This document shows, piece after piece, positions 23,093 through 40,673 of a stretch of DNA of 64,000 nt. Position 1 is the stretch's first letter; each line of letters opens with the position of its first letter. The DNA comes from Thermotoga sp. (GTDB lineage: Bacteria > Thermotogota > Thermotogae > Mesoaciditogales > Mesoaciditogaceae): contig DYLQ01000006.1 in NCBI GenBank assembly GCA_020722015.1, positions 1-64,000 of the forward strand, read 5' to 3'. A model generated the notes under the pieces. That model was not told the DNA's origin, did not search any database, and saw nothing but the letters and a program-made list of their open reading frames with translations. A program made the translations under genes and the position numbers.

Positions 23093-23130
23093 TATACTGA
23101 ACCAATTTTAAAAGTGAAGTCATTTGACTT
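23093..23130. repeat. Dispersed repeat, copy 1
   Basis: TATACTGAACCAATTTTAAAAG followed by TGAAGTCATTTGACTT lies between two convergent genes and extends into the last codons of the minus-strand gene. It matches the right end of the element at 49.5 kb with two mismatches in 38 nt. The TGAAGTCA/TGACTT arm could terminate the minus-strand transcript. Confidence 0.75.
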
Positions 23131-24757
23131 TAGATGAGATTCTCAATAGAGATTCTATTCTTTCTTTTTCTCTGATTACGTCGCCAGTTTTTGGATTTAC
23201 GACTTCGCATGCTCCGTTTATTATCGCTGTGGATACAAGGCCTCTTCCGATTTTAGAACCAATGAAGTTTGGCGTATCCAAATATCCCATTTTAACGGCA
23301 GCATCGTATGTTCGTGGATCCAAAAACGGGTCTTGACTTTTTGAGAGTTTTTTCATCGCATCCAAAAGATATTCTGCATCTGATTTGAGAATTTTTATCC
23401 TTTCAATTATTTCAGGATCGTTTTGCACATCTGGTAATCCTTTTAAACTCTCTTCTATGACCTTTCTTGCAATTTTGGCGGACTCTATGACATCATCCGC
23501 ATTTGCCGCATGATCTGCTTCTGTGAACGCAACAACATGGACTATTTGCGGTTTTATCACCATAGATTCGACTGTTGAAAAAGCGAGCTGTCCTTTCGCT
23601 TCATCAAGATCGGCCGGAAAAGCCATAAGGCCAGCTCTCACTTCTGTTATGACGTTGAAATCTTTCGAGACCAAAGAGTTTATCATTTCTTTTGTTGCCA
23701 ACATCTTCGATATATCCATTTTAGGGCTCAAACCTGAAGGTGTGTTGAACATGTATTGAGCGATGTAATTTTTGACGCCAAGTTTTTTTGCAATGTAAGC
23801 CGCGAGATAACCCATCGTGACGAAGATCACATCATGCGCGTTTCTTAGTCCCCATTGGTGCGGTTCATTTATCTCAACGGGTATCCCACGTTGGGCATGC
23901 CATTTTATCGCTTCCATATTCTCTTTTACCGCTTCTATGAATTTTCTGTCGCTTCTCCCGTCTAACTCGTTGTACCACGAGAGAGGTACGGCCGCCCATG
24001 CGTTGTTTATGGTTTTCTGAAGTAATTCGGCCATTTCAATCAAATGACTTGTGCCTGAATAAGCTCTCATCAAAGGGTAATTCCCCATTCTTGTTGCCGC
24101 ATACAGCATTTCAAAATCTTTTTCACTTCTTATGGGAACGCCCCCTGCACCGTCCAAAGATTTATTCATCTTATCTGGTTCAAAAAAGAATTGCTGTGTA
24201 TTTTGATCCGGAGCAAGAGAAATCACATCCACTGTTTGAGAATCGGATATCTTTTCTATTCCTTTGATTGTTTCGTCCAATGAAGAAAGACCGAAGTGGT
24301 GCCTTATAAGAGGATATGGATCGGCTTCCTTTATCCTGCTTATCAGATCTTGAGCGGGTATTTGGAAGGTATGCTTTTCATCTGTCCCCTTTAAATATTT
24401 GATCACCTCCCTTTGCCCTTCGGTCGAAAACACCTTATCGAAAAATTTAAACTCCATTGCCACTTTGGCAACAGCAGGTGTTCCTCCAAAGATGAATTTC
24501 CTATTTTCAAGCCCATATTGCGGAATTTTTTCTTCAACCTTTTTGAAAATTTCTCTTGCCACCGAAGGGGTGAGACGATAACTTATGGCTATGATGTCTG
24601 CTTTTGTTTCAACTGCGGCACCAAGTAATCTGTCTATCGGCGTGGCAGGTCCTAAAAAGATCGTTTCATATCCGAGACTTTTTGCAATACCCAAAAAAGA
24701 AAGTATGCCTGCAACATGCACGCAATTTTCAACTGCTCCACCGACTATCTTCATCAT
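23120..24757 (-). CDS. Fused cobalamin-binding and glutamate-mutase-like protein
   Basis: This 545-aa protein starts with a B12-binding Rossmann domain (residues 1 to about 130): GGAVENCVHVAGILSFLGIAKSLGYETIFLGP keeps the cobalt-ligand His14 and Gly17 of the DxHxxG motif, with Cys in place of Asp. The remaining 400 residues read like the TIM barrel of glutamate mutase subunit E (AYSGTSHLIEMAELL, VPLSWYNELDGRSDR, VEINEPHQWGLRNAHD, LGVKNYIAQYMFNTPSGL). This would be a fused S-E carbon-skeleton mutase. The substrate is unknown. It is the last gene of a three-gene operon and overlaps its neighbour by 4 nt. Confidence 0.7.
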   Translation of the reverse strand: MMKIVGGAVENCVHVAGILSFLGIAKSLGYETIFLGPATPIDRLLGAAVETKADIIAISYRLTPSVAREIFKKVEEKIPQYGLENRKFIFGGTPAVAKVAMEFKFFDKVFSTEGQREVIKYLKGTDEKHTFQIPAQDLISRIKEADPYPLIRHHFGLSSLDETIKGIEKISDSQTVDVISLAPDQNTQQFFFEPDKMNKSLDGAGGVPIRSEKDFEMLYAATRMGNYPLMRAYSGTSHLIEMAELLQKTINNAWAAVPLSWYNELDGRSDRKFIEAVKENMEAIKWHAQRGIPVEINEPHQWGLRNAHDVIFVTMGYLAAYIAKKLGVKNYIAQYMFNTPSGLSPKMDISKMLATKEMINSLVSKDFNVITEVRAGLMAFPADLDEAKGQLAFSTVESMVIKPQIVHVVAFTEADHAANADDVIESAKIARKVIEESLKGLPDVQNDPEIIERIKILKSDAEYLLDAMKKLSKSQDPFLDPRTYDAAVKMGYLDTPNFIGSKIGRGLVSTAIINGACEVVNPKTGDVIREKERIESLLRISSKVK

Positions 24758-25842
24758 TGATCCCCGTTTAAGACATAATCGATTATCTGCTTAACATCCA
24801 TACTTGCTATCCCCATGTCGTTGAGATCTCTGCCCAAGGAGAGCACGTCTATATTCAGCACATGGCTTATGAGATTCGTTAAATTCTCAATTATAGGCAA
24901 TCCGATTCCGCATTTTCTTGCAAGATGAACAAACGGTACAAGACCATTTAGGGTATCTTCAACTATGTATCTGTGCTGCAGCGTATCCGGCCCGAGTATC
25001 TTATGATACGCATGCGTATTTTGCAACAATTCGTAAAGATCGTCTCCTACCGATCCGTAAGTATCCGAAAGCCATATCGTAAGAGGTTTTAGTCTTATTT
25101 TAAAACATTTACCGAGTGTTATTCTTTCAAGATCAAGTTTTTCCAAAAAATTAGCGATAGACGGTGTTATACCTTCGATGTAATGAGCATAGGTAAGACC
25201 ATTTTCTATTCGACCTATGTTAAAAAGTGTTGGGGCCGGGTGAAGCACGGCTCCGTAATTACTTAAAGAAGTGTAAAGTACATTCGGATAGGTTTCGATT
25301 TGTGGGAAAATGTCTTTCAACACTTGAAAAATCTTTCTTGCATTTATGGCAGGTAAGGTCGCAAAATGAACGCCTTTTTTTATTCCATAATAATGTACTG
25401 TGGAACCGGTGGCGGATGTGCGTGTTGTAAAGATAGAACTTTCAAATTCTCCGATTGTTGTTTTAAGATCAGGTCTGTTTTCTTTCAAAACTTTTTTGAA
25501 GATCAATGCTCCTCCGGTTCTTCCGGGATGAAGCAAAATAACTTGATCATTTGTTAAAATTTCTGACAATCTTTTTGCTATTTCCATGTGAGCCGTCGTG
25601 GTCGTTGAAACGATTACGAAGTTTGCACTCTCAACTGCTTCATTTAAATTCGTGGTCATAAGATCGATATTTTGAGAACTTTCTATCTCATCCGAGAGTC
25701 TCATCGGATGTTTTCTTAGGTACTTGAAACGCCACTCGGATCTATCGTAAAGTTTTACAGCAAAACCCTTGAATTTCAAATATCCGGCCATAGCTTGACC
25801 GGTATTTCCGGCACCTAAAACCGCAAATGTCATGTTATCCAT
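24754..25842 (-). CDS. Opine/octopine-dehydrogenase-family reductase
   Basis: This 362-aa protein has an N-terminal NAD(P)-binding fold (AVLGAGNTGQAMAGYLKFKG) and the C-terminal opine-dehydrogenase domain with the catalytic motif NYGAVLHPAPTLFNIGRIE. Family members reduce the imine formed between an amino acid and a 2-oxo acid. I use ATG 25842, because AGAGG lies six bases upstream; the track start TTG 25848 touches that site. It starts 2 nt after the ATP-grasp stop. The direction of the reaction and the substrates are open. Confidence 0.8.
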   Translation of the reverse strand: MDNMTFAVLGAGNTGQAMAGYLKFKGFAVKLYDRSEWRFKYLRKHPMRLSDEIESSQNIDLMTTNLNEAVESANFVIVSTTTTAHMEIAKRLSEILTNDQVILLHPGRTGGALIFKKVLKENRPDLKTTIGEFESSIFTTRTSATGSTVHYYGIKKGVHFATLPAINARKIFQVLKDIFPQIETYPNVLYTSLSNYGAVLHPAPTLFNIGRIENGLTYAHYIEGITPSIANFLEKLDLERITLGKCFKIRLKPLTIWLSDTYGSVGDDLYELLQNTHAYHKILGPDTLQHRYIVEDTLNGLVPFVHLARKCGIGLPIIENLTNLISHVLNIDVLSLGRDLNDMGIASMDVKQIIDYVLNGDQ

Positions 25843-25844
25843 GA

Positions 25845-26774
25845 TCAACCTCTTTTCTCATGAAAAGCCCTTTTCACGATGGTTCTGATAAGCCACTCGT
25901 AGTCTTCATTTAAAGGTTTAACCATCTTAGGAAGATCACTTGTCAAAGGATCGAGACCTGGCATCGAGTTTATTTCAATCACATATGGTATTCCGTCTAC
26001 TATTCTCATATCCATTCTTAGATAGTCTCTTGCTTTGACGATCTCGAAAGATTTAATGGCCGTTTTGCGGATACGCTCTCTTACCTTTTCCGTGAAAGTC
26101 GATGGGCATTTGTAAATAGTCTGCTCGGCGAACTTTTCTTTCACTCTTTGGCTGTAATACCTTTCTATGCCTTCTGGAAGATTCGAAAAATCTATCTCCA
26201 ATTCCGGTAAAACGATCAGGTCACTTCCAAAACCGACGACGCCCACCGTAACTTCGGGACCGTCTAAAAATTCTTCGACGAGAATCGGTTCACCCAACTT
26301 TTCGAATTTGTCGATTGAACGTTTTTTAATTTCTTCGATGTCATAACACAAACTCTTTTCATCTATTCCTATGCCGGATCCTTCAGCAACGGGTTTTATA
26401 ATCGCCGGAACAGGCAATTTGCCGGTGAATTTCTTACCATCGAATAAAACTCCATTCGGAGTTTTTATTCCATAAGCTTTAAGGATATTTTTTGTCGTGA
26501 ACTTGTCCAAACACACGTAATGCGTGTATGGAGAAGAACCTATGTGCTCATGTCCCGTTAATTGTGCGACAGCAGCCACATTCCCTTGTAAAAAGTCATT
26601 TCTCTTACCTATTGAAAGATTAAAAATAACGTCATCATTCATCAACGAATCGGTGAGCTTTTCAACTGATACGATCTTTGTTTCCGCATATTTACGCAAT
26701 ACATCATCGACAGCTTGGACTGCGCGTGCTCTTTGAATATCCGTAATCGAATCTTTTACTATTAGTACCCTCAT
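25845..26774 (-). CDS. D-Ala-D-Ala-ligase-like ATP-grasp enzyme
   Basis: This 309-aa protein is an ATP-grasp ligase of the Ddl type. HIGSSPYTHYVCLDKFTTKNILKAYGI, PAIIKPVAEGSGIGI, ILVEEFLDGPEVTVGV and the metal-binding YLRMDMRIVDGIPYVIEINSMPGLDP are all present. Ddl enzymes join two amino acids with ATP. The location away from cell-wall genes, in an operon with an opine dehydrogenase and a B12 enzyme, argues against peptidoglycan synthesis. It is the first gene of the operon and has GAGGTG before its ATG. Confidence 0.85.
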   Translation of the reverse strand: MRVLIVKDSITDIQRARAVQAVDDVLRKYAETKIVSVEKLTDSLMNDDVIFNLSIGKRNDFLQGNVAAVAQLTGHEHIGSSPYTHYVCLDKFTTKNILKAYGIKTPNGVLFDGKKFTGKLPVPAIIKPVAEGSGIGIDEKSLCYDIEEIKKRSIDKFEKLGEPILVEEFLDGPEVTVGVVGFGSDLIVLPELEIDFSNLPEGIERYYSQRVKEKFAEQTIYKCPSTFTEKVRERIRKTAIKSFEIVKARDYLRMDMRIVDGIPYVIEINSMPGLDPLTSDLPKMVKPLNEDYEWLIRTIVKRAFHEKRG

Positions 26775-27146: not shown

Positions 27147-27222
27147 TCCACCATAGCTCAATCGGTAGAGCATCCGGCTGTTAACCGGAGGGTTGTAGGT
27201 TCGAGTCCTACTGGTGGAGCCA
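27147..27222 (+). tRNA. tRNA-Asn (anticodon GTT)
   Basis: The acceptor TCCACCA pairs with TGGTGGA. The anticodon arm CCGGCTGTTAACCGG shows GTT, and the T-loop GGTTCGAGTCC and an encoded CCA are present. Confidence 0.95.
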
Positions 27223-27281: not shown

Positions 27282-29231
27282 TTGAAAACAATAGGCATTG
27301 TTTCGATGAAAAATGAATTAGCAGAATTGTTAGAACGCGAGCTGAGTTTTTTTCTCAAAGACAAGGCCAATTTTGTGCGTTATATTGTCAAAAATGAAAA
27401 GGTCTTTATAGACGAAGCAGATGTGATCCTTTTGTCCGGAGAATTTGTGGCGAAATACGTTGTCATGCCACAGAAAGAAAAGATTCCCATTCTAAGTCCG
27501 CGGCGTACTCTGACCATGGATGGATGGGAAAAATTGAAATCTCTTAGAGGCGATCTTCCAATGTTGTTGGTCAACGATTCAAAAGAATCTGCGGAAGAAG
27601 TCGTATTGCTCACAGAGGAATTAGGGCTTGACCTCGATTTACATATTTACTATCCAGGTTGTGAATCATTTCCGCATCTTGAAACTGCTATAACTCCAGG
27701 AGAGGCAAGATACGTGCCGAAATTCGTCAAAAATGTAATCGACATTCATGATCGCATTTTCGATCCTTCCGTTATACTCGAATTGCTTTTCAGACTCAAT
27801 TTGTTCGAATGGGAAGATCTTCATAAAATCATTGAATATTCCAAAACCGTTAAATCCGCTCAGCCGGGGTTGCAAAAATTTTTGCTGGATATGGCAACCG
27901 TAAGGCTTGATCTGGAAACCGTACTTTCCATGACAGAACAGGCTGTAATTGCTTATTCCAAAGAAGATGGCAAAATCCTGGTTTTTAATTATTTGGCCGA
28001 AAAATATCTGAATAAAATCGGTATCGGAGAAGAAATACGTCCAGTCTTCCAAAAAATGGGGCTTAAGCACGTAAACAGAGAACTTTACAACGAAATAGTT
28101 GAGATAGATGGTTCTGAGATGATTGTAAATTTGAAAGAAGTGCCGGGCGGTACGGTGATGATTTCTTTTTATCCCGTAGATCTTTACAGAGACGTTGAAA
28201 GAAAGCATGCGTTTAAGATCAAAAGAGCGGGAATGGTTGCAAAAATGGACTTTAACGCCATAGTTGGCGGCGATAAGATTCAAGACGTCGTTAAACTTGC
28301 GAAGAAGATGGCCATTTCAGATATGCCGATCTTACTTGAAGGAGAAAGCGGCACAGGTAAAGAAGTTTTTGCGCAGGCAATTCATAATTATTCAAAAAGA
28401 TCGGATGGCCCTTTTGTACCGATTAACTGTGCCGCTTTATCGGAAGAACTACTTGAAAGCGAATTGTTCGGTTACGAAGAAGGCGCTTTTACAGGGGCGA
28501 AAAAAGGCGGGAAATCTGGTTTACTCGAAATAGCAAATAACGGAACGATATTTTTGGATGAAATATCTGAAATACCGTTTGAATTGCAGTCAAAGTTGTT
28601 GAGAGTTTTGCAAGAGAAAGAAATCATAAAAGTAGGCGGTACGAATATCATACCTGTAAATGTCCGAATCATATCGGCGACAAACGTGAATTTGTTTGAA
28701 ATGATGGAAATCGGGAAATTCAGAATGGATTTGTTTTACAGAATATCTACCTTTCAATTGCATATTCCCCCTTTAAGAGAAAGAATCGACGATTTGGATG
28801 TGCTTTTAAGATATTTCGCGTCTAAAAAAGGGTACAGCATTCATTTCGATCCGAATCTTGTCTTTTTGCTTAAAAAACATTCATGGCCAGGCAACGTAAG
28901 AGAAGTTGAAAATTTCGTCGATTATACTGGAAACCTTTTTTCGGGCATGATAGGTATAAGTGAAATGCCACCGTATTTATCTAAAAAAGTATTTGAAGAA
29001 AAAGATGTTTTAAATCATTCAGAAATAGAAGTGCTTCAATTTCTGCAGAAAAATAAAAATTCCGGCAGAGACAAGATAGCAAAAATGTGTCATATGAAAG
29101 AGAATGAAGTAAGGAAAATTCTGTCGCATCTCAAGGCATTGGGATACATATCTGTGAGTGTTGGCAGAATAGGTGCGAATGTTTCAAAATTGGGTTACCA
29201 ATTTTTAAGCAACATAGATAAGAATAGTTAA
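27282..29231 (+). CDS. Sigma-54-dependent transcriptional activator
   Basis: This 649-aa activator has an unusual N-terminal sensor (about 1-200) that I cannot place with certainty, and a PAS-like segment at about 200-310. The AAA+ domain has GESGTGKE (Walker A), ESELFGYEEGAFTGAKKGG with the sigma-54-contacting GAFTGA loop, and TIFLDEI (Walker B). The C-terminus is not a Fis-type helix but a winged-helix-like domain (SGRDKIAKMCHMKENEVRKILSHLKALGYI). It starts at a TTG after AGGGTGAT. Directly downstream is a perfect -24/-12 promoter for a peptide-degradation operon, which it most likely controls. Confidence 0.9.
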   Translation: MKTIGIVSMKNELAELLERELSFFLKDKANFVRYIVKNEKVFIDEADVILLSGEFVAKYVVMPQKEKIPILSPRRTLTMDGWEKLKSLRGDLPMLLVNDSKESAEEVVLLTEELGLDLDLHIYYPGCESFPHLETAITPGEARYVPKFVKNVIDIHDRIFDPSVILELLFRLNLFEWEDLHKIIEYSKTVKSAQPGLQKFLLDMATVRLDLETVLSMTEQAVIAYSKEDGKILVFNYLAEKYLNKIGIGEEIRPVFQKMGLKHVNRELYNEIVEIDGSEMIVNLKEVPGGTVMISFYPVDLYRDVERKHAFKIKRAGMVAKMDFNAIVGGDKIQDVVKLAKKMAISDMPILLEGESGTGKEVFAQAIHNYSKRSDGPFVPINCAALSEELLESELFGYEEGAFTGAKKGGKSGLLEIANNGTIFLDEISEIPFELQSKLLRVLQEKEIIKVGGTNIIPVNVRIISATNVNLFEMMEIGKFRMDLFYRISTFQLHIPPLRERIDDLDVLLRYFASKKGYSIHFDPNLVFLLKKHSWPGNVREVENFVDYTGNLFSGMIGISEMPPYLSKKVFEEKDVLNHSEIEVLQFLQKNKNSGRDKIAKMCHMKENEVRKILSHLKALGYISVSVGRIGANVSKLGYQFLSNIDKNS

Positions 29232-29301
29232 CGTTCAGCTCTTTCACACAGATCCAGTTTATCTACCTATTTCGTAATTCAAATTCAATTTTAAATTCGA
29301 T

Positions 29302-29342
29302 TTTCATTTAAAATGCAATGATTTTTACCGTTTCAAATGAAA
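29302..29342 (+). promoter_or_regulatory. Possible upstream activator sites
   Basis: TTTCATTT (29302-29309) and AAATGAAA (29335-29342) form an inverted pair, and CATTTAAAATG (29305-29315) is itself palindromic. They lie immediately upstream of the -24 element, and sigma-54 activators usually bind farther up, so this is tentative. Confidence 0.3.
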
Positions 29343-29350
29343 TGATAATC

Positions 29351-29366
29351 TGGCACATTCATTGCT
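29351..29366 (+). promoter_or_regulatory. Sigma-54 (-24/-12) promoter of the iadA operon
   Basis: TGGCAC-N5-TTGCT matches the sigma-54 consensus TGGCAC-N5-TTGCW at every fixed position. It lies 24 bases before the iadA start codon and 120 bases after the activator gene. Confidence 0.88.
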
Positions 29367-29390
29367 TACTTTGTAAGTGAGGTGATGATC

Positions 29391-30512
29391 ATGATATCAA
29401 TTAAAGAAGTTGAATTATACGATCCCGCTTACAAAGGCAAAATGGATATTTTGATCGCCAATGGATATATTGAAGAAATATCTCAAAGGGGGAAATTCGA
29501 TTTCGCCCAAGAGATTAAATTGAAAAATGTGATAGCGATTCCTGGATTCATAGACGGTCATGTTCACGTGATCGGCGGCGGAGGAGAAGGGGGATTTACG
29601 TCAAGAATCAATGAGATTCAAACTTCAAAACTTTTGAATTGTGGCATTACCTCGGTAATTGGATTACTTGGGACCGATTCAATGACAAAACCTTTAATCT
29701 CTCTTTTTGCAAAAACGAAGGCATTGCAAGCAGAAGGCATGAACGCTTACATGATGACCGGATCTTATCAATATCCGGTTCAAACGATAACAGATTCTAT
29801 TGAGAGAGATATAATATTGATCGATCCGATCATAGGAGTCGGAGAACTTGCGATCTCGGATCACAGATCAAGCTCTATAACCGTTGATGAACTCAGAAAG
29901 GTCGCCCAAAAATGCCGTGTTGCTTCGATGATTTCATCAAAGTCCGGAAAGATCATCGTGCATGTCGGAAGTTCGAAAAAAATGTTATCACCTTTGATGG
30001 AAGCAGTTTCAGATGACGAAATAAAAATAGAATCTTTTCTTCCGACGCATGTCAACAGAAACAAAGATCTTTTACGTAATGCTTTGGAATGGATCAAGAT
30101 GGGCGGTTTTGTCGACATCACAGCTGAAGACACCTCGAAAGAAGCCATTAGCGTTGAGGAATCGATCGATTATCTTACCTCAAATGGGGCCGAATTGGAT
30201 CATATCCTTGTAAGCAGCGATTCTCAGGGAAGCATTCCGACCTTTGACAAAGACGGTAATTTTGTCTCAATGAAAGTTTCTGATTGCGCTGTCATGTTCA
30301 AAGCTTTCAGGGCATGTGTGAGAAAGGGAATGAAGATTGAGAATGCCTTAAAGCCTTTCACGGTAAACGTTTCTCGGTTCTTCAAACTCGACAACGCAGG
30401 AACGATCGAAAAATCCAAACGCGCAGACATGATCTTTGTCGATAGGGATACATTTGAAATCGATTCGATTATGATTAAGGGTAGTTTTTTGAATAAATCT
30501 TCAAAATTTTAA
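29391..30512 (+). CDS. iadA: Isoaspartyl (beta-aspartyl) dipeptidase
   Basis: IadA hydrolyses beta-aspartyl dipeptides that come from damaged proteins or cell-wall-like peptides. It is an amidohydrolase. This 373-aa protein has PGFIDGHVHVIGGGGEGG with metal ligands His57 and His59, IIVHVGSSKKML, FLPTHVNRNKDLL and ILVSSDSQGS. The bridging-ligand segment reads GVGELAISDHRS, with Glu where I recall a carbamylated lysine in the E. coli enzyme. The ATG at 29391 has GAGGTG six bases upstream; the track start at 29382 falls in that site. It is the first gene behind the sigma-54 promoter. Confidence 0.88.
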   Translation: MISIKEVELYDPAYKGKMDILIANGYIEEISQRGKFDFAQEIKLKNVIAIPGFIDGHVHVIGGGGEGGFTSRINEIQTSKLLNCGITSVIGLLGTDSMTKPLISLFAKTKALQAEGMNAYMMTGSYQYPVQTITDSIERDIILIDPIIGVGELAISDHRSSSITVDELRKVAQKCRVASMISSKSGKIIVHVGSSKKMLSPLMEAVSDDEIKIESFLPTHVNRNKDLLRNALEWIKMGGFVDITAEDTSKEAISVEESIDYLTSNGAELDHILVSSDSQGSIPTFDKDGNFVSMKVSDCAVMFKAFRACVRKGMKIENALKPFTVNVSRFFKLDNAGTIEKSKRADMIFVDRDTFEIDSIMIKGSFLNKSSKF

Positions 30513-30530
30513 AAACAAGGGGGTTAGTCT

Positions 30531-32414
30531 ATGAAGAAAGTTTTTGTGATTTTTTTGGCTGTATTGTTTAGCATCGGTATCGTTGCAATAAGTCAAGGCG
30601 TCGTCAATCCTGATACCTTTGTCTACGAACAACCGGGACCTTTTTGGAGTTTGGATCCTGCTTTTGAGTACGATTTCACCTCAAGTGAGGTGGTAATGCA
30701 ACTTTACGATCAGTTGATTCAATATGACGGAACGTCAACTGTAAATCTTTCTCCTATGTTGTCAACAAATGTTCCTTCTCTCAAAGATGGCACTATATTG
30801 GATAACGGAACAACTTATGTTTTCCACATAAGACCTGACGTACTCTTTCACAACGGAGACAAACTGACTCCTCAGGATGTCGTATATTCACTTGAAAGAA
30901 CGATAATACTCGATGTTGTGAGTGGCCCTGCGTGGTTACTTACTGGACCTTTGTTTCCACAAATCGATGGTCAGTACGTAACATCGATAGTTCAAGTCGT
31001 GGCACAGCAACTTGGACTACAAAATCCTTTAAGTTACACGAGTTTTGATTCTCTCGGCATTTTTGCGACCGGAACCAATCGATTGCTGAATGATAAATAC
31101 AAGCAAGCACTCATAAATGCATTTAACATTCTCAACAAAGATTTCGAGGTGAAGGGTAACGATCTGATAATTCATCTGCCGCAGCCATATGCACCATTTC
31201 TTTATATACTCGCAGGTCCTGTTTCTAACTGGGCCGCTGTTTTGGATCAAAAATGGTGTGCTGAACATAACGCATGGGACGGAGCTGCCGATGATTGGTG
31301 GCAATATCATAATCCTACCGTTGGTGACGATCCTCTCTACGATATAGAAAATGGAACCGGCCCTTACATGATAAAGTACATAACACCCGGGCAAGAAGTA
31401 TTTTTCCAAAGATTTGACAATTATTGGGCCGGACCGGCAAAGATAAAATATGCCGTTATAAAATACGTAAATGAATTCACAACGAGTTTACTCGATTTGC
31501 AACGTGGGCAGGCAGACGCGATACGAGTTCCGGTCCAAAACCTTTCTCAGGTTCAAAATAATCCTGATATAACCGTTCTAACAGGTTTCCCGATGTTGCT
31601 TGTTGATTTGATGCCTTTCCAGTGGAATATAACCACTCCGAATAAATTCATAGGTTCAGGTAAACTCGACGGGAACGGCATACCGCCCGATTTTTTCTCT
31701 AATTTAGATGTTAGAAAAGCTTTTGAATATCTTTTCCCGTATCAACAGTACATAGAACAGGTATGGAACGGTCAAGCCTTACAGCCTAACAGTGCCATAA
31801 TAAAAGGTCTTCTCGGATACGATCCCAATTTACCGAAATATCATCAGGATCTTGCGAAAGCGACTGAATATTTCAAAAAAGCATATGATGGGAAATTGTG
31901 GGATGTTGGTTTTAAATTCACCGTAATTTACGGGGCCGGTAACGCAACAAGGCAACTTGCACTTCAAACTTTGAGTACATATGCAAGACAGATCAACCCG
32001 AAATTCCAGATAAGCGCTATCGGAGAGATAAATTCTTCTTTCAGCGCAGATTTAATTGCGGGCAAACTTCCGATAACGTCTGTTTCGTGGGGAGCAGATT
32101 ACCCGGATCCTTACGATTTTGCATTCGCATGTTATTCGTCTAACGGATTTTACGCTTCGTTTTTGGGACAAAATTTCGTGAATTTTGCCAAACAAAATCT
32201 TGACTCTCTTGTCGATAAACTCGTCACTACTTTGAATCCAAATGAAAGAGCCAAAATAGCACAGGAACTTTCAAAGTTGGATTACGAAAATGCGCTTTAC
32301 ATCTGGCCGGATCAGCCGGAAGCTTATTGGGTTGCGCGTAGCTGGGTAAAGGGTTGGTACTACAACGCAGAGATTGCCCAATTTGGTCCTTACTTCTACA
32401 TGCTTTCAAAATGA
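30531..32414 (+). CDS. Family 5 solute-binding protein (peptide type)
   Basis: This 627-aa secreted protein has a signal peptide (VFVIFLAVLFSIGIVAIS) and the SBP_bac_5 pattern: LDPAFEYDFTSSEVVMQLYDQLIQYDG, DVLFHNGDKLTPQDVVYSLERTI and NGTGPYMIKYITPGQEVFFQRFDNYWAG. It lies between two peptidase genes under sigma-54 control, so it probably binds peptides. No permease or ATPase genes follow. The ribosome site is AAGGGGG. Confidence 0.88.
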   Translation: MKKVFVIFLAVLFSIGIVAISQGVVNPDTFVYEQPGPFWSLDPAFEYDFTSSEVVMQLYDQLIQYDGTSTVNLSPMLSTNVPSLKDGTILDNGTTYVFHIRPDVLFHNGDKLTPQDVVYSLERTIILDVVSGPAWLLTGPLFPQIDGQYVTSIVQVVAQQLGLQNPLSYTSFDSLGIFATGTNRLLNDKYKQALINAFNILNKDFEVKGNDLIIHLPQPYAPFLYILAGPVSNWAAVLDQKWCAEHNAWDGAADDWWQYHNPTVGDDPLYDIENGTGPYMIKYITPGQEVFFQRFDNYWAGPAKIKYAVIKYVNEFTTSLLDLQRGQADAIRVPVQNLSQVQNNPDITVLTGFPMLLVDLMPFQWNITTPNKFIGSGKLDGNGIPPDFFSNLDVRKAFEYLFPYQQYIEQVWNGQALQPNSAIIKGLLGYDPNLPKYHQDLAKATEYFKKAYDGKLWDVGFKFTVIYGAGNATRQLALQTLSTYARQINPKFQISAIGEINSSFSADLIAGKLPITSVSWGADYPDPYDFAFACYSSNGFYASFLGQNFVNFAKQNLDSLVDKLVTTLNPNERAKIAQELSKLDYENALYIWPDQPEAYWVARSWVKGWYYNAEIAQFGPYFYMLSK

Positions 32415-32420
32415 ATTAAT

Positions 32421-32440
32421 GGCCCTGCTCCTGCAGGGCC
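32421..32440 (+). promoter_or_regulatory. Intergenic hairpin between binding-protein gene and dppA
   Basis: GGCCCTGC-TCCT-GCAGGGCC is followed by ATATTATACGAGGAGG, without a T-run. It may lower dppA expression relative to the binding protein or stabilise the upstream message. Confidence 0.65.
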
Positions 32441-32460
32441 ATATTATACGAGGAGGAATT

Positions 32461-33312
32461 ATGAAAATCTACATTTCAACGGATATGGAAGGCTTACCAG
32501 GAATAAATTCGTGGCATCAGGTAAGCGATAAAGATCCAAGATTTTTGAATAAATATCTTGAGGAAACTCTTCGATGGGTTGTGGACGGAATAAAAGCGTC
32601 AAATCAAAATTCCGATGTAGATCAAATACTTGTGTGTGATTCTCACGCACTCGGTGAAAATGTCTCTTACGATTTCACCGAATACGATGACAGACTCTAT
32701 CTTGTGAGAGGAGGGTTAAGAGATTATTACATGATGGCTGGACTGGATTCTTCTTTCTCTACTGTTTTTTTCGTCGGCTATCATGCCGGAGTCGGGGCAA
32801 TGCACGGAATCATGGATCACACGTATTCGTCAGCATCCGTGCATACGATGAAAATAAATGGCATTAGAATGAACGAAACTCTGATAAATGCCGCATTTGC
32901 AGGCGATCTTGGAATACCTGTCTCTTGTGTGATCGGGGATCACGCGCTTGTCGATGAATTAAAAGATGCACTTAAAGACACGGTCTTAATAGAGACCAAA
33001 ACGGGATTAAGCAGATTTGCCGCTATCATGAAGCCCAAAAATGTCGTTAAGCAGGAAGTAATCGCAGGCGTAAAGGCAGCTCTTGACAAAACGTACAAAA
33101 AATCAATTAAACCATATAAATTCGAATCGCCTTACGAACTCGAAATAGAATTCAATTCAACCGAAATGGCAGATGAATCCATGCTTATACCGGGTCTTGA
33201 AAGAATAGATGGCAGAACTGTGAAGTACAATTGCAATGCTTATCCGGTTTTGATGAAAACGATGCTTGCCGTCGTCTATACCGCAAGAGTTGGAACGGAT
33301 ATGGGAAAATAA
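32461..33312 (+). CDS. dppA: D-aminopeptidase, M55 family (DppA)
   Basis: DppA releases N-terminal D-amino acids such as D-Ala from short peptides. This 283-aa protein keeps all zinc ligands of the B. subtilis enzyme at matching positions: Asp8 and Glu10 (STDMEG), His62 (DSHALGEN), His108 (GYHAG) and Glu139 (RMNETLINA). The ATG at 32461 follows GAGGAGG; the longer ORF in the track overlaps the upstream gene. With iadA and the binding protein it forms a unit for unusual (isoaspartyl and D-amino acid) peptides. Confidence 0.93.
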   Translation: MKIYISTDMEGLPGINSWHQVSDKDPRFLNKYLEETLRWVVDGIKASNQNSDVDQILVCDSHALGENVSYDFTEYDDRLYLVRGGLRDYYMMAGLDSSFSTVFFVGYHAGVGAMHGIMDHTYSSASVHTMKINGIRMNETLINAAFAGDLGIPVSCVIGDHALVDELKDALKDTVLIETKTGLSRFAAIMKPKNVVKQEVIAGVKAALDKTYKKSIKPYKFESPYELEIEFNSTEMADESMLIPGLERIDGRTVKYNCNAYPVLMKTMLAVVYTARVGTDMGK

Positions 33313-33796: not shown

Positions 33797-33843
33797 CAGA
33801 GGACTTGACATGGTTTCATTTCTTTGATATCATAATGTGGATT

Positions 33844-33930
33844 GCCGAGGTGGTGGAACTGGCAGACACGCATGCTTGAGGGGCATGTGGGCATATGCTC
33901 GTGCGGGTTCAAGTCCCGCCCTCGGCACCA
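33844..33930 (+). tRNA. tRNA-Leu (anticodon GAG)
   Basis: This is a class II tRNA with a long variable arm. The acceptor GCCGAGG pairs with CCTCGGC, the anticodon arm CATGCTTGAGGGGCATG shows GAG, and CCA is encoded. Confidence 0.94.
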
Positions 33931-33935
33931 GATGA

Positions 33936-33958
33936 GAGTCGCGTTAGCGACTCATTTT
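33936..33958 (+). terminator. Rho-independent terminator after tRNA-Leu
   Basis: GAGTCGC-GTTA-GCGACTC is followed by ATTTTT. Confidence 0.9.
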
Positions 33959-33976
33959 TGTATTAAGGAGAGAAAA

Positions 33977-34606
33977 ATGGCTGAAATCATGTCTTCCAAA
34001 GATCCACAAACTCTTCAAATTGCCAGTGAGATCCTCAAAAATGGTGGCGTTATAGTCTTCCCAACGGAAACTGTTTATGGCGTTGGTGCGCTTTTGGACG
34101 ATGAAAGTGCCATAAAACGAATATATGAAATAAAGGGAAGGAATTTTGATAAGCCCTTACTCATACATATATCAAAGATGGCTTACGTTTTAGATCTTTC
34201 AAGGTACATTTCGGACAAGGTATCGGATCTCATGAAAACTTTTTGGCCAGGCCCTTTATCGATAATTTTGGAAGCATCATGCGCCGTTCCAAGATCGGCC
34301 ATTGCCTATGGTTACACGGTTGGTTTCAGAATGCCATCCAACAAATTTTTCAGAGATTTATCTGCTTTGGTCGGGCCTATAGCGGCGACAAGCGCCAATC
34401 TTTCGGGCAAAAAAGATCCTCTGGCATGTGAAGAAGCATACGATTATCTCAAAGATTCGGTAGATCTTTACGTAGATGATGGCCCGGTTGAGAGAGGATC
34501 CCCTTCTACAGTTATAGATATGACGTTAAATCCTCCGAAAATTTTGAGGGTAGGGGCAATCGGTGTTGATGAGATAGAAAAGATCATAGGCAAAGTTAAT
34601 TCATAA
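33977..34606 (+). CDS. tsaC: Threonylcarbamoyl-AMP synthase, TsaC type
   Basis: This enzyme makes threonylcarbamoyl-AMP for the t6A37 modification of tRNA. The YrdC core is complete: VFPTETVYGVGALLDDE, IYEIKGRNFDKPLLIHI, FWPGPLSIIL, VGFRMPSN, SANLSG and GSPSTVID. At 209 aa it lacks the extra C-terminal domain of Sua5. The ATG at 33977 has AAGGAGAG upstream; the track ORF begins inside tRNA-Leu. MtaB at 4.4 kb uses t6A as its substrate, so the two enzymes act in one pathway. Confidence 0.92.
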   Translation: MAEIMSSKDPQTLQIASEILKNGGVIVFPTETVYGVGALLDDESAIKRIYEIKGRNFDKPLLIHISKMAYVLDLSRYISDKVSDLMKTFWPGPLSIILEASCAVPRSAIAYGYTVGFRMPSNKFFRDLSALVGPIAATSANLSGKKDPLACEEAYDYLKDSVDLYVDDGPVERGSPSTVIDMTLNPPKILRVGAIGVDEIEKIIGKVNS

Positions 34607-34615
34607 GGAGATAAA

Positions 34616-35428
34616 ATGGAATCTTTTGAGATAACTTTGAACGGCAGAAAGACAGATGCTTTTAGATGGCCGACAAAGAATCCGAAAGCGGTCGTCGTGA
34701 TCGTCCACGGACTTGGTGAGCACGTTTCGAGGTACGACGTGATATCGAAAGAATTCAACGATGCGGGTCTTGAAATGATAGGATTCGATCAAAGAGGACA
34801 TGGCAAAAATCCGGTCGTAAAAGGTTATGTAGCACATTTCGAGGACTTTCTGAAGGACATAGATGATTTCATAAAGATGCAAAAGACGGATCTTCCGATT
34901 TTCATGCTCGGACACAGCCTCGGTGGTTTAATTGCCGCAAGGTACAACGAAGAATTTCAAGGGCGTCTAAAAGGTACTGTACTTTCAAGCGGTGCTTTTT
35001 CCATTGATAACGTTTCAGGCGTACTCGTTTTGATGGCCAAGATTTTTTCAACTTTAAAACCCACTTTGGCTTTCAACAACGGAATAGATCCAAAGACCGT
35101 CTCGAGAAGTGAAGTGGTAATTTCAGATTACACAAAGGATCCTCTTGTCCATGACAGGATAACGGCAAGACTTTCATCCGAATTGTTTAAAAATGTAAAG
35201 GTGGTCTTTAAAAAGGCATCTGCTTTCACAACACCTGTGCTTATGACTGCCGGATCACAGGATAAAATCGTTCCATTCGAAGGAACGAAGAAATTGTTCT
35301 CCGCCATCGCTTCGAAGGACAAGGAGATTAAAATTTTCGACGGCGCATACCATGAAATCTTTTGCGATCCGCAATATGCCTCCGAATTTCGAAGCACGAT
35401 CATTGACTGGATTTTAAAGCGGATCTGA
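34616..35428 (+). CDS. Alpha/beta hydrolase, monoacylglycerol-lipase-like
   Basis: This 270-aa cytosolic protein has the layout of bacterial monoglyceride lipases (Hydrolase_4 family): VHGLGEHVSRYD with the oxyanion HG, the nucleophile elbow GHSLGG (Ser about 101), MTAGSQDKIVPFEGT with the acidic residue and GAYHEIFCD with the catalytic His. The real substrate could be any small ester. It starts 9 nt after tsaC with AAGGAG upstream. Its last 29 bases overlap the end of the convergent subtilase gene. Confidence 0.8.
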   Translation: MESFEITLNGRKTDAFRWPTKNPKAVVVIVHGLGEHVSRYDVISKEFNDAGLEMIGFDQRGHGKNPVVKGYVAHFEDFLKDIDDFIKMQKTDLPIFMLGHSLGGLIAARYNEEFQGRLKGTVLSSGAFSIDNVSGVLVLMAKIFSTLKPTLAFNNGIDPKTVSRSEVVISDYTKDPLVHDRITARLSSELFKNVKVVFKKASAFTTPVLMTAGSQDKIVPFEGTKKLFSAIASKDKEIKIFDGAYHEIFCDPQYASEFRSTIIDWILKRI

Positions 35429-38171
35429 GCGCTTCATAATGTGCCTTTACGGCACTCTGAATGAAAGTATGAAGTGCCTCAAGAGATGTACCGTATAAAG
35501 ATGGCGGTGTGCTAACTTCTGGACTTACCTGTATGCCCACATTGCAAGTTTGGTTGGCATTTACACTCAAAGTTAAAGGTGTCGATTGAGTACCGTGATA
35601 TCCATAGTATCCGTAAAAGTCTCCCTGATCTATCTTTCCATCTCCATTAAAATCTTGCCATGCGTATATCTGATAATTCCCAACGGGAACCGTCATGGAA
35701 AAACTTCCATTCGCAGAAACTTGGGTTTGGGCAACAATCGCAGTACCGTCAGAAGTCTGTGCCCATACGATCATAGGTTCCCATCCTCCGTTGTAAGTCA
35801 CGGCATTGTAAGCGTTGACAAGGCCGTATCCGAAAGTTGATTGAGACCCTATGTTTGTGGCCGTGTTTTCGAGTATACTCGTTATATTTGAAACTCCGGT
35901 TATTCCTCTTCCTATCATAAGTGCCGCTATGGCGGAGACCTGAGGCGCTGCGAATGATGTGCCCTGACCATAACCATAACCATTTGTATTCGTGGAAGTG
36001 GAGTAAGTCGTGCTGAAGACGCCGTTTGGATCGTTTTGAGAATACATCTGCCCTCCTGGCGCACACAAAACGTTTGAATAATAGTTAGAGTAATACGCAA
36101 GTGTGTAAGATGATCCCGAAGGCGCTACCGATGCAACCGGAATTACAGTTGGGAATGCGGCCGGATATTCCAAAGAATTACTTGAATCATTGCCCGCCGC
36201 TGCAACCACAACGACGTTGTTGTTGTACGCATATTGGCATGCAAGTTGCTCGGTTTGAGAGTAATCCACACCGCCAAGACTTAAGTTTATCACCTTTGCA
36301 CCATGCTCGACGGCATAAATTATGCCTTCGCTTACGTAATAAGTTGATCCGGAACCGCTTGAATCGAGTACGACGATGGGCATTATTTTCGTAGAAAAGC
36401 TGCTTCCCCAATTTATTCCCGCAATTCCTATTCCGTTGTTAGTATCCGCATCTATTATGCCTGTAACGAATGTCCCATGTCCGAAATCATCCATCGTGTT
36501 GGTCGTGTTATTGACGAAATTATAACCCGGTACGAGTATATTTTGGAGATCCGGATGTGTCGATGAAACTCCGGTATCAACAACGGCAACTATGACTGTA
36601 TTCGCGCCGGTCGCTACACTCCATGCCTGCGGCGCTTCGATATCCTGAAGGTACCACTGGTTTGAGTAGTAAGGATCGTTGACAGAGACGGATAAAGCGT
36701 GAACGATGTAATTTGGCTCGGCATAAGCGACATTGGAAAGAGATTTGAAGTACGATATCGCATTTTCGACAGATGTTGAAACGGTGATCAAAGAAGCGTT
36801 GACTTCGTAATTGGGAGTTTGAATGCTGCTGAGTATTTGGTATTTGAATGGCGAAGGATATATCGATAGCATTTTCGGTGTTATGCCGCTTTTGAATCCG
36901 ACAACTACCTGATTTGGTACGTAATCCGGGCCTGTGTATTTTTGTATCTGCCAGTTTGCGTTTGCAGTCGGTACAATGGAAGCCGAAGAGACAAATGCAC
37001 TTTGACCCGTGTAAACGTTAACCGAACCGGTTATGGTTCCGTATTGCTGTACTATCGGTTGTGTCGTAATGGCTATTTGATTTGAATATCCCGATTCCCC
37101 AGATGGGTTGTACGCCGTGACTTCGTAATAATATGTCGTGGAGGGAGAAAGATTTGTATCTGTGTAAGAAGTAACATTTACAGAAGCAATATTGGAGAAA
37201 TTTACGCCATTTGTAGATCTGTAAACATTGTATCCAGATGCAAAAGGAGATGTTGACCATGAAAATGACGCAGAATTATACGTTACGGAAGTTTGATAAA
37301 GATTTGACGGTGCGGACGGAATAGGTTCATTTTTTGTCGTAAAACTCCATAAAGGACTTTTTGTTGATAAGTAGCCGTTGTCTGCGACAACGTACCAGTA
37401 ATAGGTTGTGGAATAATTTAGATTTGAAATCGTGTATTGAGATGCCGATAGATTTGAAATATAAAGTGGCGGGTTATCTGATGTCCCAAAGTATAGAGAA
37501 TATGTCAGCGGCAAGTTGTTCGGATCCGATCCGTACCAACTTATCGTTACGTCTGTGGATACACCGGTACCTCCGTTCAAGGGATTGAGAAGTGAGATGG
37601 AAGGAGGCACAATTTGGGCATAGATTGCCGTTGCCTGCGTTGGAAGGGTTAAAAATTGTGTTAGAGGATTGCCTGGGATCACCTGTCCATTCACCATCCA
37701 ATATTTAAAAATGTAATTAGGTATATTAGGGGCACTGATCTGCACCTGAGATCCCGAAAGGTAGAATCCATTTTGAGAAACAGGCGTTGCCGATGGTAAA
37801 ACGCCTTCGTTAGATCCAAGAACGAATTTGTAGTAAGTCGAGGTTGTGAACGAATAGCTTTGAGCAGATGTTAAATTTATCTGCCGTGGATTTTGAGTAG
37901 ATCCATCCGACCATGAAGAAAACATGTACAGTGTATTTGAAATACCAGCGTAATTACCGATCGTCGCATATGTGGGCATTATCTCAATCGTGTGCGGACC
38001 ATAAGAAAGATTAGTCGACACAGGTGTAATGTAGGAAGAATTATCGATGAGTACGTTAATGCCTTGTGGAGACGAATTCAGCGTGAATTGAAGTTTAATT
38101 AAAAAACAAGATGACAAAAGCAGCGTGACTAAAAAGAGCGCTATAATTAGCAACAAAATATTTCTTTTCAT
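35400..38171 (-). CDS. Secreted subtilisin-family (S8) lipoprotein protease
   Basis: This 923-aa protein starts with a lipoprotein signal (LFLVTLLLSSC). About 170 residues of beta repeats come next, then two fibronectin type III-like domains (190-280 and 283-370) and a propeptide-like segment with YVPNQVVVGFKSG. The S8 catalytic domain (about 490-790) has the triad VVDTGVSSTHPDL, GHGTFVTGI and GTSFAAPQ. A C-terminal domain with a calcium-loop-like DFNGDGKIDQGD follows. It should be anchored outside the cell membrane and degrade proteins. Its start overlaps the radical SAM gene by 4 nt. Confidence 0.92.
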   Translation of the reverse strand: MKRNILLLIIALFLVTLLLSSCFLIKLQFTLNSSPQGINVLIDNSSYITPVSTNLSYGPHTIEIMPTYATIGNYAGISNTLYMFSSWSDGSTQNPRQINLTSAQSYSFTTSTYYKFVLGSNEGVLPSATPVSQNGFYLSGSQVQISAPNIPNYIFKYWMVNGQVIPGNPLTQFLTLPTQATAIYAQIVPPSISLLNPLNGGTGVSTDVTISWYGSDPNNLPLTYSLYFGTSDNPPLYISNLSASQYTISNLNYSTTYYWYVVADNGYLSTKSPLWSFTTKNEPIPSAPSNLYQTSVTYNSASFSWSTSPFASGYNVYRSTNGVNFSNIASVNVTSYTDTNLSPSTTYYYEVTAYNPSGESGYSNQIAITTQPIVQQYGTITGSVNVYTGQSAFVSSASIVPTANANWQIQKYTGPDYVPNQVVVGFKSGITPKMLSIYPSPFKYQILSSIQTPNYEVNASLITVSTSVENAISYFKSLSNVAYAEPNYIVHALSVSVNDPYYSNQWYLQDIEAPQAWSVATGANTVIVAVVDTGVSSTHPDLQNILVPGYNFVNNTTNTMDDFGHGTFVTGIIDADTNNGIGIAGINWGSSFSTKIMPIVVLDSSGSGSTYYVSEGIIYAVEHGAKVINLSLGGVDYSQTEQLACQYAYNNNVVVVAAAGNDSSNSLEYPAAFPTVIPVASVAPSGSSYTLAYYSNYYSNVLCAPGGQMYSQNDPNGVFSTTYSTSTNTNGYGYGQGTSFAAPQVSAIAALMIGRGITGVSNITSILENTATNIGSQSTFGYGLVNAYNAVTYNGGWEPMIVWAQTSDGTAIVAQTQVSANGSFSMTVPVGNYQIYAWQDFNGDGKIDQGDFYGYYGYHGTQSTPLTLSVNANQTCNVGIQVSPEVSTPPSLYGTSLEALHTFIQSAVKAHYEALRSALKSSQ

Positions 38172-39685
38172 ATCTCAGATAATCTTTTCTTTATTCCGGA
38201 TTTGGAAAGCTTTTCTGCTACTTTTCTGAAATGATATCCGTATATTGCAAATGAAACTGCTTTGGAAAACACTTTGGGTTTTTTGAATAAACTCCATGTC
38301 AGGATCTTCCAATATTCCTTTCTTTCTTTACCAAAGATTCCAAGCAAAAAGATTGATTTTAAAAATGCACCTATTTCTGAAGCACTGAGCTTTGGCTTTG
38401 GAAGATTCGGTACTTTGTAAACTGAAAGAAATTCCTTAAGCCTTTTGTAATAATTTTGGGGGTTGTAAAGTAGACCAACCAAATTTTTATAACCATTTAC
38501 AAGTGCTTTGGAATCCATCTTTGGGATTATGTTTGTCATGGCATCGACGTTGTCTCCCGTCATTTCTCCAAGCAATCTGTTTTCATCTCTGAGTTTTTCG
38601 TAAAGTTGGCTTCCGCGCGGAGCATTTAACAACCCGACCATGGCCGTAACAACGCCGTTGTTTTGTATGAAATCGAATTGCCTTTTGAATATCGTCGGCA
38701 TATCGCTGTCAAAACCGACTATAAATCCACCTTGGACTTCGAATCCAAAAGATTGAATTTTTCGAATGGATTTCTCAAGATCGTGCTTTATGTTTTGATA
38801 TTTATTTGCTTCCTTTAAACTTTCCAGATCTGGAGTTTCTATCCCCACGAAGACCCTATCGAACCCTGATTTAGACATGAGTTCCATGAGCTCATCATCA
38901 TCGGAAAAATCTATCGATACTTCGGTGTAAAAGGTAAACGGATATCTGTGTGCTTTCTGCCACTCTATAAGTGCCGGTAAAATGTCACGTTTCAATTTTG
39001 CTTTGTTACCGATGAAATTATCATCAACAAAGAAAATTGATTTGCGCCATCCCGCATCGTATAAAGATTGCACCTCATCTATTATCTGTTTTGCGGTCTT
39101 TTGACGTGGGACTCTACCACTAAGAGCGCCTATATCGCAAAATTCGCAGTTGTATGGACACCCTCTTGAGTATTGAATGCTCATAGAAGCGTACCACTTA
39201 AGATTCAACAAATCCCATTTTGGTACGGGTACTTTTGCAATATCACAAAAATCCGTCTTGACGTAATATCTCTTGATTTTTTTGTTTTCCATGTCTTTTA
39301 CGAGATCATCCATGACGTCTTCACCCTCTCCAAGTACGAAATAATCAACGGTATCATGGAATGTATCGGGTTCCATGGTAAAAAGTGGTCCGCCTGCGAC
39401 AACAGGTATACCAAAATCATTACACTTTTTTATGACCTCTTTTGAAGATTCTCTCTGAACCGTCATGGCGCTTATGAAAACGTAATCTGCGCTTTTTATA
39501 TCTTCGTCTTTCAATTGTTCGCAATTCATGTCAACGAGTTTTACATCCCACGTTTTTGGCAAATATGCCGCGATCGTCAAAAGGCCCAACGGAGGCAATG
39601 AGGCTCTTTTGGATACAAACTTAAGAGCATATTTGAAACTCCAAAATGTGTTTGGATAACTCGGATAAACCATCAAAATTTTCAA
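38168..39685 (-). CDS. B12-binding-type radical SAM protein (DUF4070-like)
   Basis: This 505-aa protein has an N-terminal cobalamin-binding-like Rossmann domain (MVYPSYPNTFW, SLPPLGLLTIAAYLP, FISAMTVQRESSKEVIKKC). A radical SAM barrel with CPYNCEFC follows at about residue 180, and a C-terminal helical region resembles DUF4070. Relatives act in hopanoid, bacteriochlorophyll and other lipid or cofactor methylations and rearrangements, but no substrate can be assigned. It starts at a TTG with GAGGCGG upstream and is co-transcribed with the secreted subtilase, an odd pairing. Confidence 0.82.
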   Translation of the reverse strand: MKILMVYPSYPNTFWSFKYALKFVSKRASLPPLGLLTIAAYLPKTWDVKLVDMNCEQLKDEDIKSADYVFISAMTVQRESSKEVIKKCNDFGIPVVAGGPLFTMEPDTFHDTVDYFVLGEGEDVMDDLVKDMENKKIKRYYVKTDFCDIAKVPVPKWDLLNLKWYASMSIQYSRGCPYNCEFCDIGALSGRVPRQKTAKQIIDEVQSLYDAGWRKSIFFVDDNFIGNKAKLKRDILPALIEWQKAHRYPFTFYTEVSIDFSDDDELMELMSKSGFDRVFVGIETPDLESLKEANKYQNIKHDLEKSIRKIQSFGFEVQGGFIVGFDSDMPTIFKRQFDFIQNNGVVTAMVGLLNAPRGSQLYEKLRDENRLLGEMTGDNVDAMTNIIPKMDSKALVNGYKNLVGLLYNPQNYYKRLKEFLSVYKVPNLPKPKLSASEIGAFLKSIFLLGIFGKERKEYWKILTWSLFKKPKVFSKAVSFAIYGYHFRKVAEKLSKSGIKKRLSEI

Positions 39686-40295: not shown

Positions 40296-40648
40296 GGGGG
40301 CGAAATGGTTTCGACGGGATATGTGTTTTGCGAGAAGCGAGCCAGGGGTGCCTACCTCCCTGTGAAAAAGGTTCGAATGATAATAAACGTCAATCCTGAA
40401 TACGCACTCGCTGCTTAATAGTTAAGTAGCCGTCCTTGTATCTTTTGCCCGGAGAGATACATAAGGGCGTCAGAATTCCGGACTACACGAATGAAGATGT
40501 TCCCGTTCGTTCGTGGAAATAAAGGGAACTTGGTTGGATGTCCCGTGCCTAATGCGGGATATTCGATGACGATAAACATAGGCTGCGCTCGGAGAAGCTT
40601 GCACGGCAGGTATTTCGGACGTGGGTTCGATTCCCATCGCCTCCACCA
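40296..40648 (+). ncRNA. ssrA: tmRNA
   Basis: This RNA rescues stalled ribosomes and tags the product for proteolysis. The 5' end GGGGGCGAAATGGTTTCGACGGG and the 3' end GTGGGTTCGATTCCCATCGCCTCCACCA form the tRNA-like domain (GGGGGCG pairs with CGCCTCC), and CCA is encoded. The tag frame reads AAC GTC AAT CCT GAA TAC GCA CTC GCT GCT TAA, giving a tag that ends NVNPEYALAA, with a typical hydrophobic ALAA terminus. Hairpins in the middle part fit pseudoknots. At 353 nt it is a one-piece tmRNA. Confidence 0.97.
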
Positions 40649-40673
40649 GTTTTCAAAAGGTGGAGATGATTCT

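Follow-up and report, generated by a model that had tools for sequence, protein, structure and literature searches.

A conserved gene set of a predicted B12-dependent mutase, an opine-type dehydrogenase and a changing amide ligase in Thermotogota

Few carbon-skeleton reactions are known for adenosylcobalamin-dependent mutases. Zhang, Rodionov, Gelfand and Gladyshev (2009, BMC Genomics 10:78, PMC2667541) predicted, without assigning a function, a B12-dependent family that occurs in 11 bacteria, members of the Thermotogae among them. They describe the family as "always adjacent" to an octopine/nopaline dehydrogenase, report that several organisms also have a D-Ala:D-Ala ligase and asparagine synthase close by, and assign a possible barrel to the N terminus. 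We analyzed a window of 64,000 nucleotides from the genome of a heat-loving Thermotogota bacterium (Thermotoga sp., GCA_020722015.1, contig DYLQ01000006.1, positions 1 to 64,000) and focused on an operon of three genes, here called MUT, ODH and LIG, which encode a predicted B12-dependent mutase, an opine-type dehydrogenase and a Ddl-like ligase. On balance, we lean towards a biosynthetic reading, in which the operon is a conserved module that produces an amino acid with a rearranged skeleton and an N-carboxyalkyl group and links it through an amide bond.

We assign MUT to the 2009 family because all the features described for it match: an N-terminal B12 domain, an adjoining PF02317 gene, a nearby Ddl or asparagine synthase, and occurrence in Thermotogae. 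The comparison is one of descriptions, and they differ on the barrel, which was placed N-terminally in 2009 whereas the MUT model has the B12 domain at the N terminus and a barrel of the glutamate mutase E (GlmE) type at the C terminus. The initial annotation had presented the three-gene set as undescribed. This has to be withdrawn, since the association is already reported by Zhang et al., though without a function; the set is a member of a known, uncharacterized family and its gene association is not new. We found no published substrate, product or function for the set in the open-access literature, and a characterization in a subscription journal is possible. Whereas the 2009 study covers 11 bacteria and gives no fold or function, the present data cover 65 Thermotogota genomes, subfamilies in polysaccharide clusters of Bacteroidota and a partner resembling AsnB with a dead glutaminase site. 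The additions appear to be the fold, the extra subfamilies, the ligase swaps, the capsule/polysaccharide context and active-site arguments that exclude two obvious functions.

The three minus-strand open reading frames (ORFs) were found where they had been annotated:

23120-24757, minus strand: MUT, 545 amino acids (aa) in a single chain, predicted adenosylcobalamin-dependent mutase
24383-24757, minus strand: MUT residues 1-125, predicted Rossmann-like B12-binding domain with invariant His14
23258-24346, minus strand: MUT residues 138-500, predicted mutase-type TIM barrel
24754-25848, minus strand: ODH, 364 aa, predicted opine-type (N-carboxyalkyl amino acid) dehydrogenase
25845-26774, minus strand: LIG, 309 aa, predicted Ddl-like ATP-grasp carboxylate-amine ligase

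The coupling first described, one 4-nt overlap and one 2-nt gap, is reproduced if ODH starts at an ATG, which leaves the gap at the LIG/ODH junction. A TTG start two codons upstream gives 4-nt overlaps at both the LIG/ODH and the ODH/MUT junctions.

Predicted folds and key residues of the three enzymes

The enzyme classes, folds, key residues, co-occurrence and ligase exchange reported here are read from sequences and structure models. In MUT, Pfam matched the B12-binding family PF02310 in residues 3-98 (1e-8) and the glutamate mutase E family PF06368 in residues 314-512 (1e-6). The AlphaFold model, built from 35 family members, has a mean predicted local distance difference test (pLDDT) score of 91.6. 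Its top Foldseek match in the PDB is glutamate mutase E (6h9e_B, 1cb7_B; E ~1e-18), followed by ornithine 4,5-aminomutase (1e-11), lysine 5,6-aminomutase (2e-11) and then acyl-CoA mutases. His14 and Gly17 are invariant in the 35 aligned sequences, as are barrel residues including R152, D184, Q188, R231, Y233, R268, R305, R374 and E413. MUT as modeled is an N-terminal B12 domain and a mutase-type barrel in one chain. This agrees with the initial annotation, which had read a B12-binding domain with His14 fused to a barrel like that of glutamate mutase E and had proposed a structural comparison with glutamate mutase and the lysine/ornithine aminomutases: the C-terminal part came out as a mutase-type TIM barrel, with glutamate mutase E nearest and the aminomutases next. 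Among the proteins of ~560-590 aa in Thermotogota that match PF06368, the one read (L077) resembles methylmalonyl-CoA mutase and not a second copy of the MUT family. A search of plasmids with MUT gave no match.

ODH matches PF02317 (Octopine_DH) at 5e-39, with 134 bits against a gathering score of 30, and carries the opine motif noted earlier, VLHPAPTLFNIGRIE. The sole solved structure that it matched is 1bg6, N-(1-D-carboxyethyl)-L-norvaline dehydrogenase (CENDH), at 1e-70 over 349 residues, i.e. full length. H203 and D298 of ODH, the equivalents of CENDH His202 and Asp297, which we take to be the catalytic pair of CENDH, are invariant in 25 homologues. ODH is therefore predicted to catalyze opine-type chemistry, with CENDH as its closest relative. 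Plasmid searches with ODH found distant opine dehydrogenases only.

LIG contains the D-Ala-D-Ala ligase C-terminal domain PF07478 (1e-23, Pfam), and its model (pLDDT 90.8) best matched Ddl structures in Foldseek (E=1e-23). The ATP/metal residues are retained: in the catalytic region R253, D255 and N269 are invariant and E267 is nearly so. The glutamate of the GGxSxER motif of Ddl binds the first D-Ala. The true Ddls of G018 and of the window family have this N-terminal motif and LIG lacks it; LIG has a family-specific motif, LEIDFSxLPxGxExxYSxxVK. Each of the five genomes tested, including that of the window (G000), has exactly one other, better Ddl match elsewhere (G000:C122). We rejected the possibility that LIG is the cell-wall Ddl on these two grounds, and because of them LIG is probably a Ddl paralogue with another substrate, in keeping with its first description as Ddl-like but not near cell-wall genes.

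Conservation of the set and exchange of the ligase

We examined 103 Thermotogota genomes, counting MUT by family-level matches. MUT and ODH share exactly the same 65 genomes and are never found one without the other; G005 and G052 are also in the MUT tally, match through the B12 domain only and are not among the 65. Because the two genes fall in identical sets of genomes, their association is far beyond chance. They are adjacent or lie within one short cluster, except in G097, where a contig end falls between them. At the threshold for the LIG family (E<=1e-90), LIG is adjacent to the pair in 38 of these genomes, elsewhere in 16 and absent from 11, and of the 38 genomes that lack MUT only 2 carry it (tallied by hand from tables). 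The idea that the genes stay together in other genomes thus held for MUT and ODH in 65 out of 65 and, with LIG adjoining, in 38 out of 65. The window family has the gene order LIG-ODH-MUT, most others have ODH-MUT-LIG, and L075 has ODH-LIG-MUT. The pairwise divergences of MUT, ODH and LIG are correlated (Spearman 0.85-0.88), which fits co-inheritance and partly reflects shared ancestry. Flanking genes vary among the Thermotogota loci, and no pathway is apparent from these neighbors.

In a tree of the fetched LIGs, linked and unlinked copies are intermixed and the unlinked ones mostly nest among the linked, so that most unlinked LIGs look like relocated orthologues. L117 (the G036 copy) and L125 are outlying paralogues, and L117 is not countable as an orthologue. 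Unlinked orthologues in f10 genomes (L112, L113, L114, L119 and L122) share an operon with a dihydropyrimidinase/D-hydantoinase-like amidohydrolase, some also with an adenylylsulfate-kinase-like protein. This arrangement may also hint at what LIG makes.

Elsewhere the ligase is replaced. An asparagine-synthetase-like gene stands beside ODH-MUT in L054 (twice), L080, L081, L094 and L095. In these AsnB-like partners the catalytic Cys2 of AsnB is replaced by Ser or Ala and the glutaminase domain is shortened, and the ATP-binding motifs SGGLDSS and GEGxDE (GES in one member) are retained. With Cys2 gone, they would be unable to use glutamine normally and are expected to couple a carboxylate with an amine, like beta-lactam synthetase and the lasso-peptide cyclases. 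At G024:C1:168000-187900 (L054), threonine-pathway genes (homoserine dehydrogenase-aspartokinase, L054_9; threonine synthase; homoserine kinase), the AsnB-like gene, ODH and MUT form a block that occurs twice in tandem, and the first gene of the block runs off the locus end in one copy.

Mutase homologues were also detected in 4 of 297 genomes from the phylum to which the Chlorobiota genome G103 belongs and in 5 of 251 genomes in the family of G335. In Bacteroidota relatives, longer MUT forms, M2 (~625 aa) and M3 (612-638 aa), accompany PF02317 dehydrogenases. They lie in clusters that also contain glycosyltransferase, sugar-nucleotide and DegT-like genes, assignments made by reading the sequences and not by profile search. 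ATP-grasp enzymes adjoin M2/M3 in the polysaccharide clusters L096, L106, L107 and L109; some have an L-amino-acid-ligase C-terminal domain (PF18603), and that of L096 weakly matches PylC-like_N. The L106 cluster has two tandem opine-type dehydrogenase genes ahead of its M2 mutase (L106:6661-8818). Polysaccharides are known to be decorated with opine residues such as alanopine and N-epsilon-(1-carboxyethyl)lysine (PMC10609480), which makes a use of the module in polysaccharides plausible. Across these loci, judged by sequence, the constant parts are the predicted B12 mutase and opine-type dehydrogenase, and the changing part is a predicted ATP-dependent amide-forming enzyme.

A proposed biosynthetic module and its alternatives

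We infer a synthetic direction, an order of steps and the general nature of the substrates and product as follows. MUT would use adenosylcobalamin, with cobalt held by His14, to generate a 5'-deoxyadenosyl radical and bring about a carbon-skeleton rearrangement in an amino acid or derivative, in chemistry like that of glutamate mutase on a different substrate. ODH would condense an amine with a 2-oxo acid and, using NAD(P)H, reduce the imine so that a secondary amine results, as in the opine chemistry of CENDH. LIG would then activate a carboxylate with ATP and form an amide with an amine, which could belong to an amino acid, an amino sugar or the same molecule. In other lineages this step would fall to an AsnB-like enzyme lacking the glutaminase cysteine or to another ATP-grasp enzyme.

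Some observations weigh against this biosynthetic module. The B12 motif of the MUT family is (D/C)xHxxG, a variant of the usual DxHxxG: the His is invariant, about half of the family retains the Asp, and some members have Cys there, among them the window protein, which reads C-V-H-V-A-G. ODH has Gly at the position of CENDH Asn198, and its specificity or even its reaction may therefore differ. The 11 genomes with MUT and ODH and no LIG-family gene at the threshold, together with a further one, G036, that holds only the paralogue L117, suggest that the ligase may be non-essential or that another enzyme takes its place.

The initial annotation had left it undecided whether the enzymes make or break an unusual amino acid. 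Making is favored by the ATP-dependent amide ligase and the homologues in polysaccharide clusters. In a catabolic or salvage pathway, ODH would oxidatively cleave an opine or N-alkyl amino acid taken up by the cell, MUT would rearrange the amino acid released and LIG would be accessory. We consider this rather unlikely. In its favor, opine dehydrogenase reactions are reversible, and a peptide-scavenging operon lies 0.5-6.5 kb upstream in the window. These genes (27282-33312, plus strand) encode a sigma-54 regulator with an AAA domain nearest to PrdR, an isoaspartyl dipeptidase, a family-5 solute-binding protein and an M55 D-aminopeptidase, and look like a unit that scavenges isoaspartyl and D-amino-acid peptides. 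The regulator begins at 27282 and is divergent from LIG-ODH-MUT, with one feature in between:

27147-27219, plus strand: tRNA gene, between the operon and the sigma-54 regulator

Because of this intervening gene, the operon and the regulator do not form one transcript. The peptidase operon, on the opposite strand and past the tRNA gene, is not conserved as a neighbor, and no lyase, thiolase or transporter is a conserved linked neighbor in the loci read. An ATP-consuming amide ligase and the polysaccharide-cluster homologues suit synthesis better.

A second alternative is that MUT is a single-chain glutamate mutase, converting glutamate to 3-methylaspartate, as its nearest fold and the PF06368 match would suggest. 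Residues with roles in the related enzymes are the arginine claw of glutamate mutase and the lysine of the aminomutases that binds pyridoxal phosphate (PLP). We aligned MUT with the GlmE of E. coli O157 (ECs_0762) by sequence, not by structure, and the identity is low, so the residue-level correspondence is tentative. In this alignment the claw residues R66/R100/R149 fall on His/Gln/Tyr, K326 is not retained, and only E330 has a counterpart, the invariant E413. TIGR01503 scores MUT at 18.2 bits, far below its equivalog cut-off of 390.1, and no 3-methylaspartate ammonia-lyase lies beside MUT in the loci read. We rejected glutamate mutase proper on the absent claw and the TIGR01503 score, and hold the assignment to be quite improbable. 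The TIGR01503 profile had no match in the phylum of G103, where control searches were equally silent.

Still less probable is a PLP- and B12-dependent aminomutase of the lysine/ornithine type. In profile alignments OraE and KamE match the B12 domain of MUT well, and OraE and KamD come second to glutamate mutase by fold. The same alignments show that the loop bearing the PLP lysine of OraE and KamE is deleted in the MUT family, on which ground the candidate was rejected; the barrel is also nearer to glutamate mutase E, and no ornithine or lysine fermentation genes lie alongside MUT. Least credible is a methyltransferase or sensory role of the B12 domain, with MUT not a radical mutase, because corrinoid methyltransferase proteins do resemble this domain but the barrel fold matches mutases far ahead of methyltransferases.

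Other genes in the window were noted. A second protein with a B12-binding domain, radical S-adenosylmethionine (SAM)-like by sequence, is encoded at 38168-39685 (minus strand), and its gene overlaps the beginning of the gene at 35400-38171, which encodes a secreted, subtilisin-like protease carrying fibronectin-type repeats. The N-terminal parts of the mechanically called ORFs 33842-34606 and 40491-41570 (both plus strand; e.g. MPRWWNWQTRMLEGHVGICSCGFKSRPRHQ) resemble translated tRNA genes, so that translation probably begins further downstream.

Comparison with known systems

The MUT family, predicted since 2009, is widely conserved, in about two thirds of the Thermotogota genomes searched. 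With a dehydrogenase that stays constant and amide ligases that change, the possible chemistry is restricted enough for direct assays to be designed. The homologues in polysaccharide clusters open another route to the product, through structure analysis.

Each enzyme has a described counterpart from which it departs. Glutamate mutase (GlmES) shares the barrel and B12-domain fold and one Glu (E330/E413) with MUT, which differs in being one chain with an N-terminal B12 domain and in not retaining the arginine claw. CENDH (1bg6) and ODH have full-length similarity (1e-70) and the catalytic His/Asp in common and differ at Asn198, which is Gly in ODH. Ddl and LIG share the fold and the ATP/metal residues, and LIG has LEIDFSxLPxGxExxYSxxVK but not GGxSxER.

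For the set as a whole, the closest parallel is in logic. In the pyrrolysine route, the mutase PylB yields a methyl-branched amino acid, the ATP-grasp enzyme PylC forms an amide and the NAD-dependent dehydrogenase PylD completes the molecule. The sequence of mutase, ligase and dehydrogenase is similar, but the two sets are to be seen as analogous and not as homologous: PylB belongs to the radical SAM enzymes and has no B12, PylD is not opine-type, and we have no evidence for a use of the operon product in translation. Tentatively, the module may be a cobalamin-dependent counterpart of the pyrrolysine logic, in which a mutase of new specificity would lead to a C-branched, N-carboxyalkylated, amide-linked and undescribed natural product, free in Thermotogota and a polysaccharide decoration in Bacteroidota.

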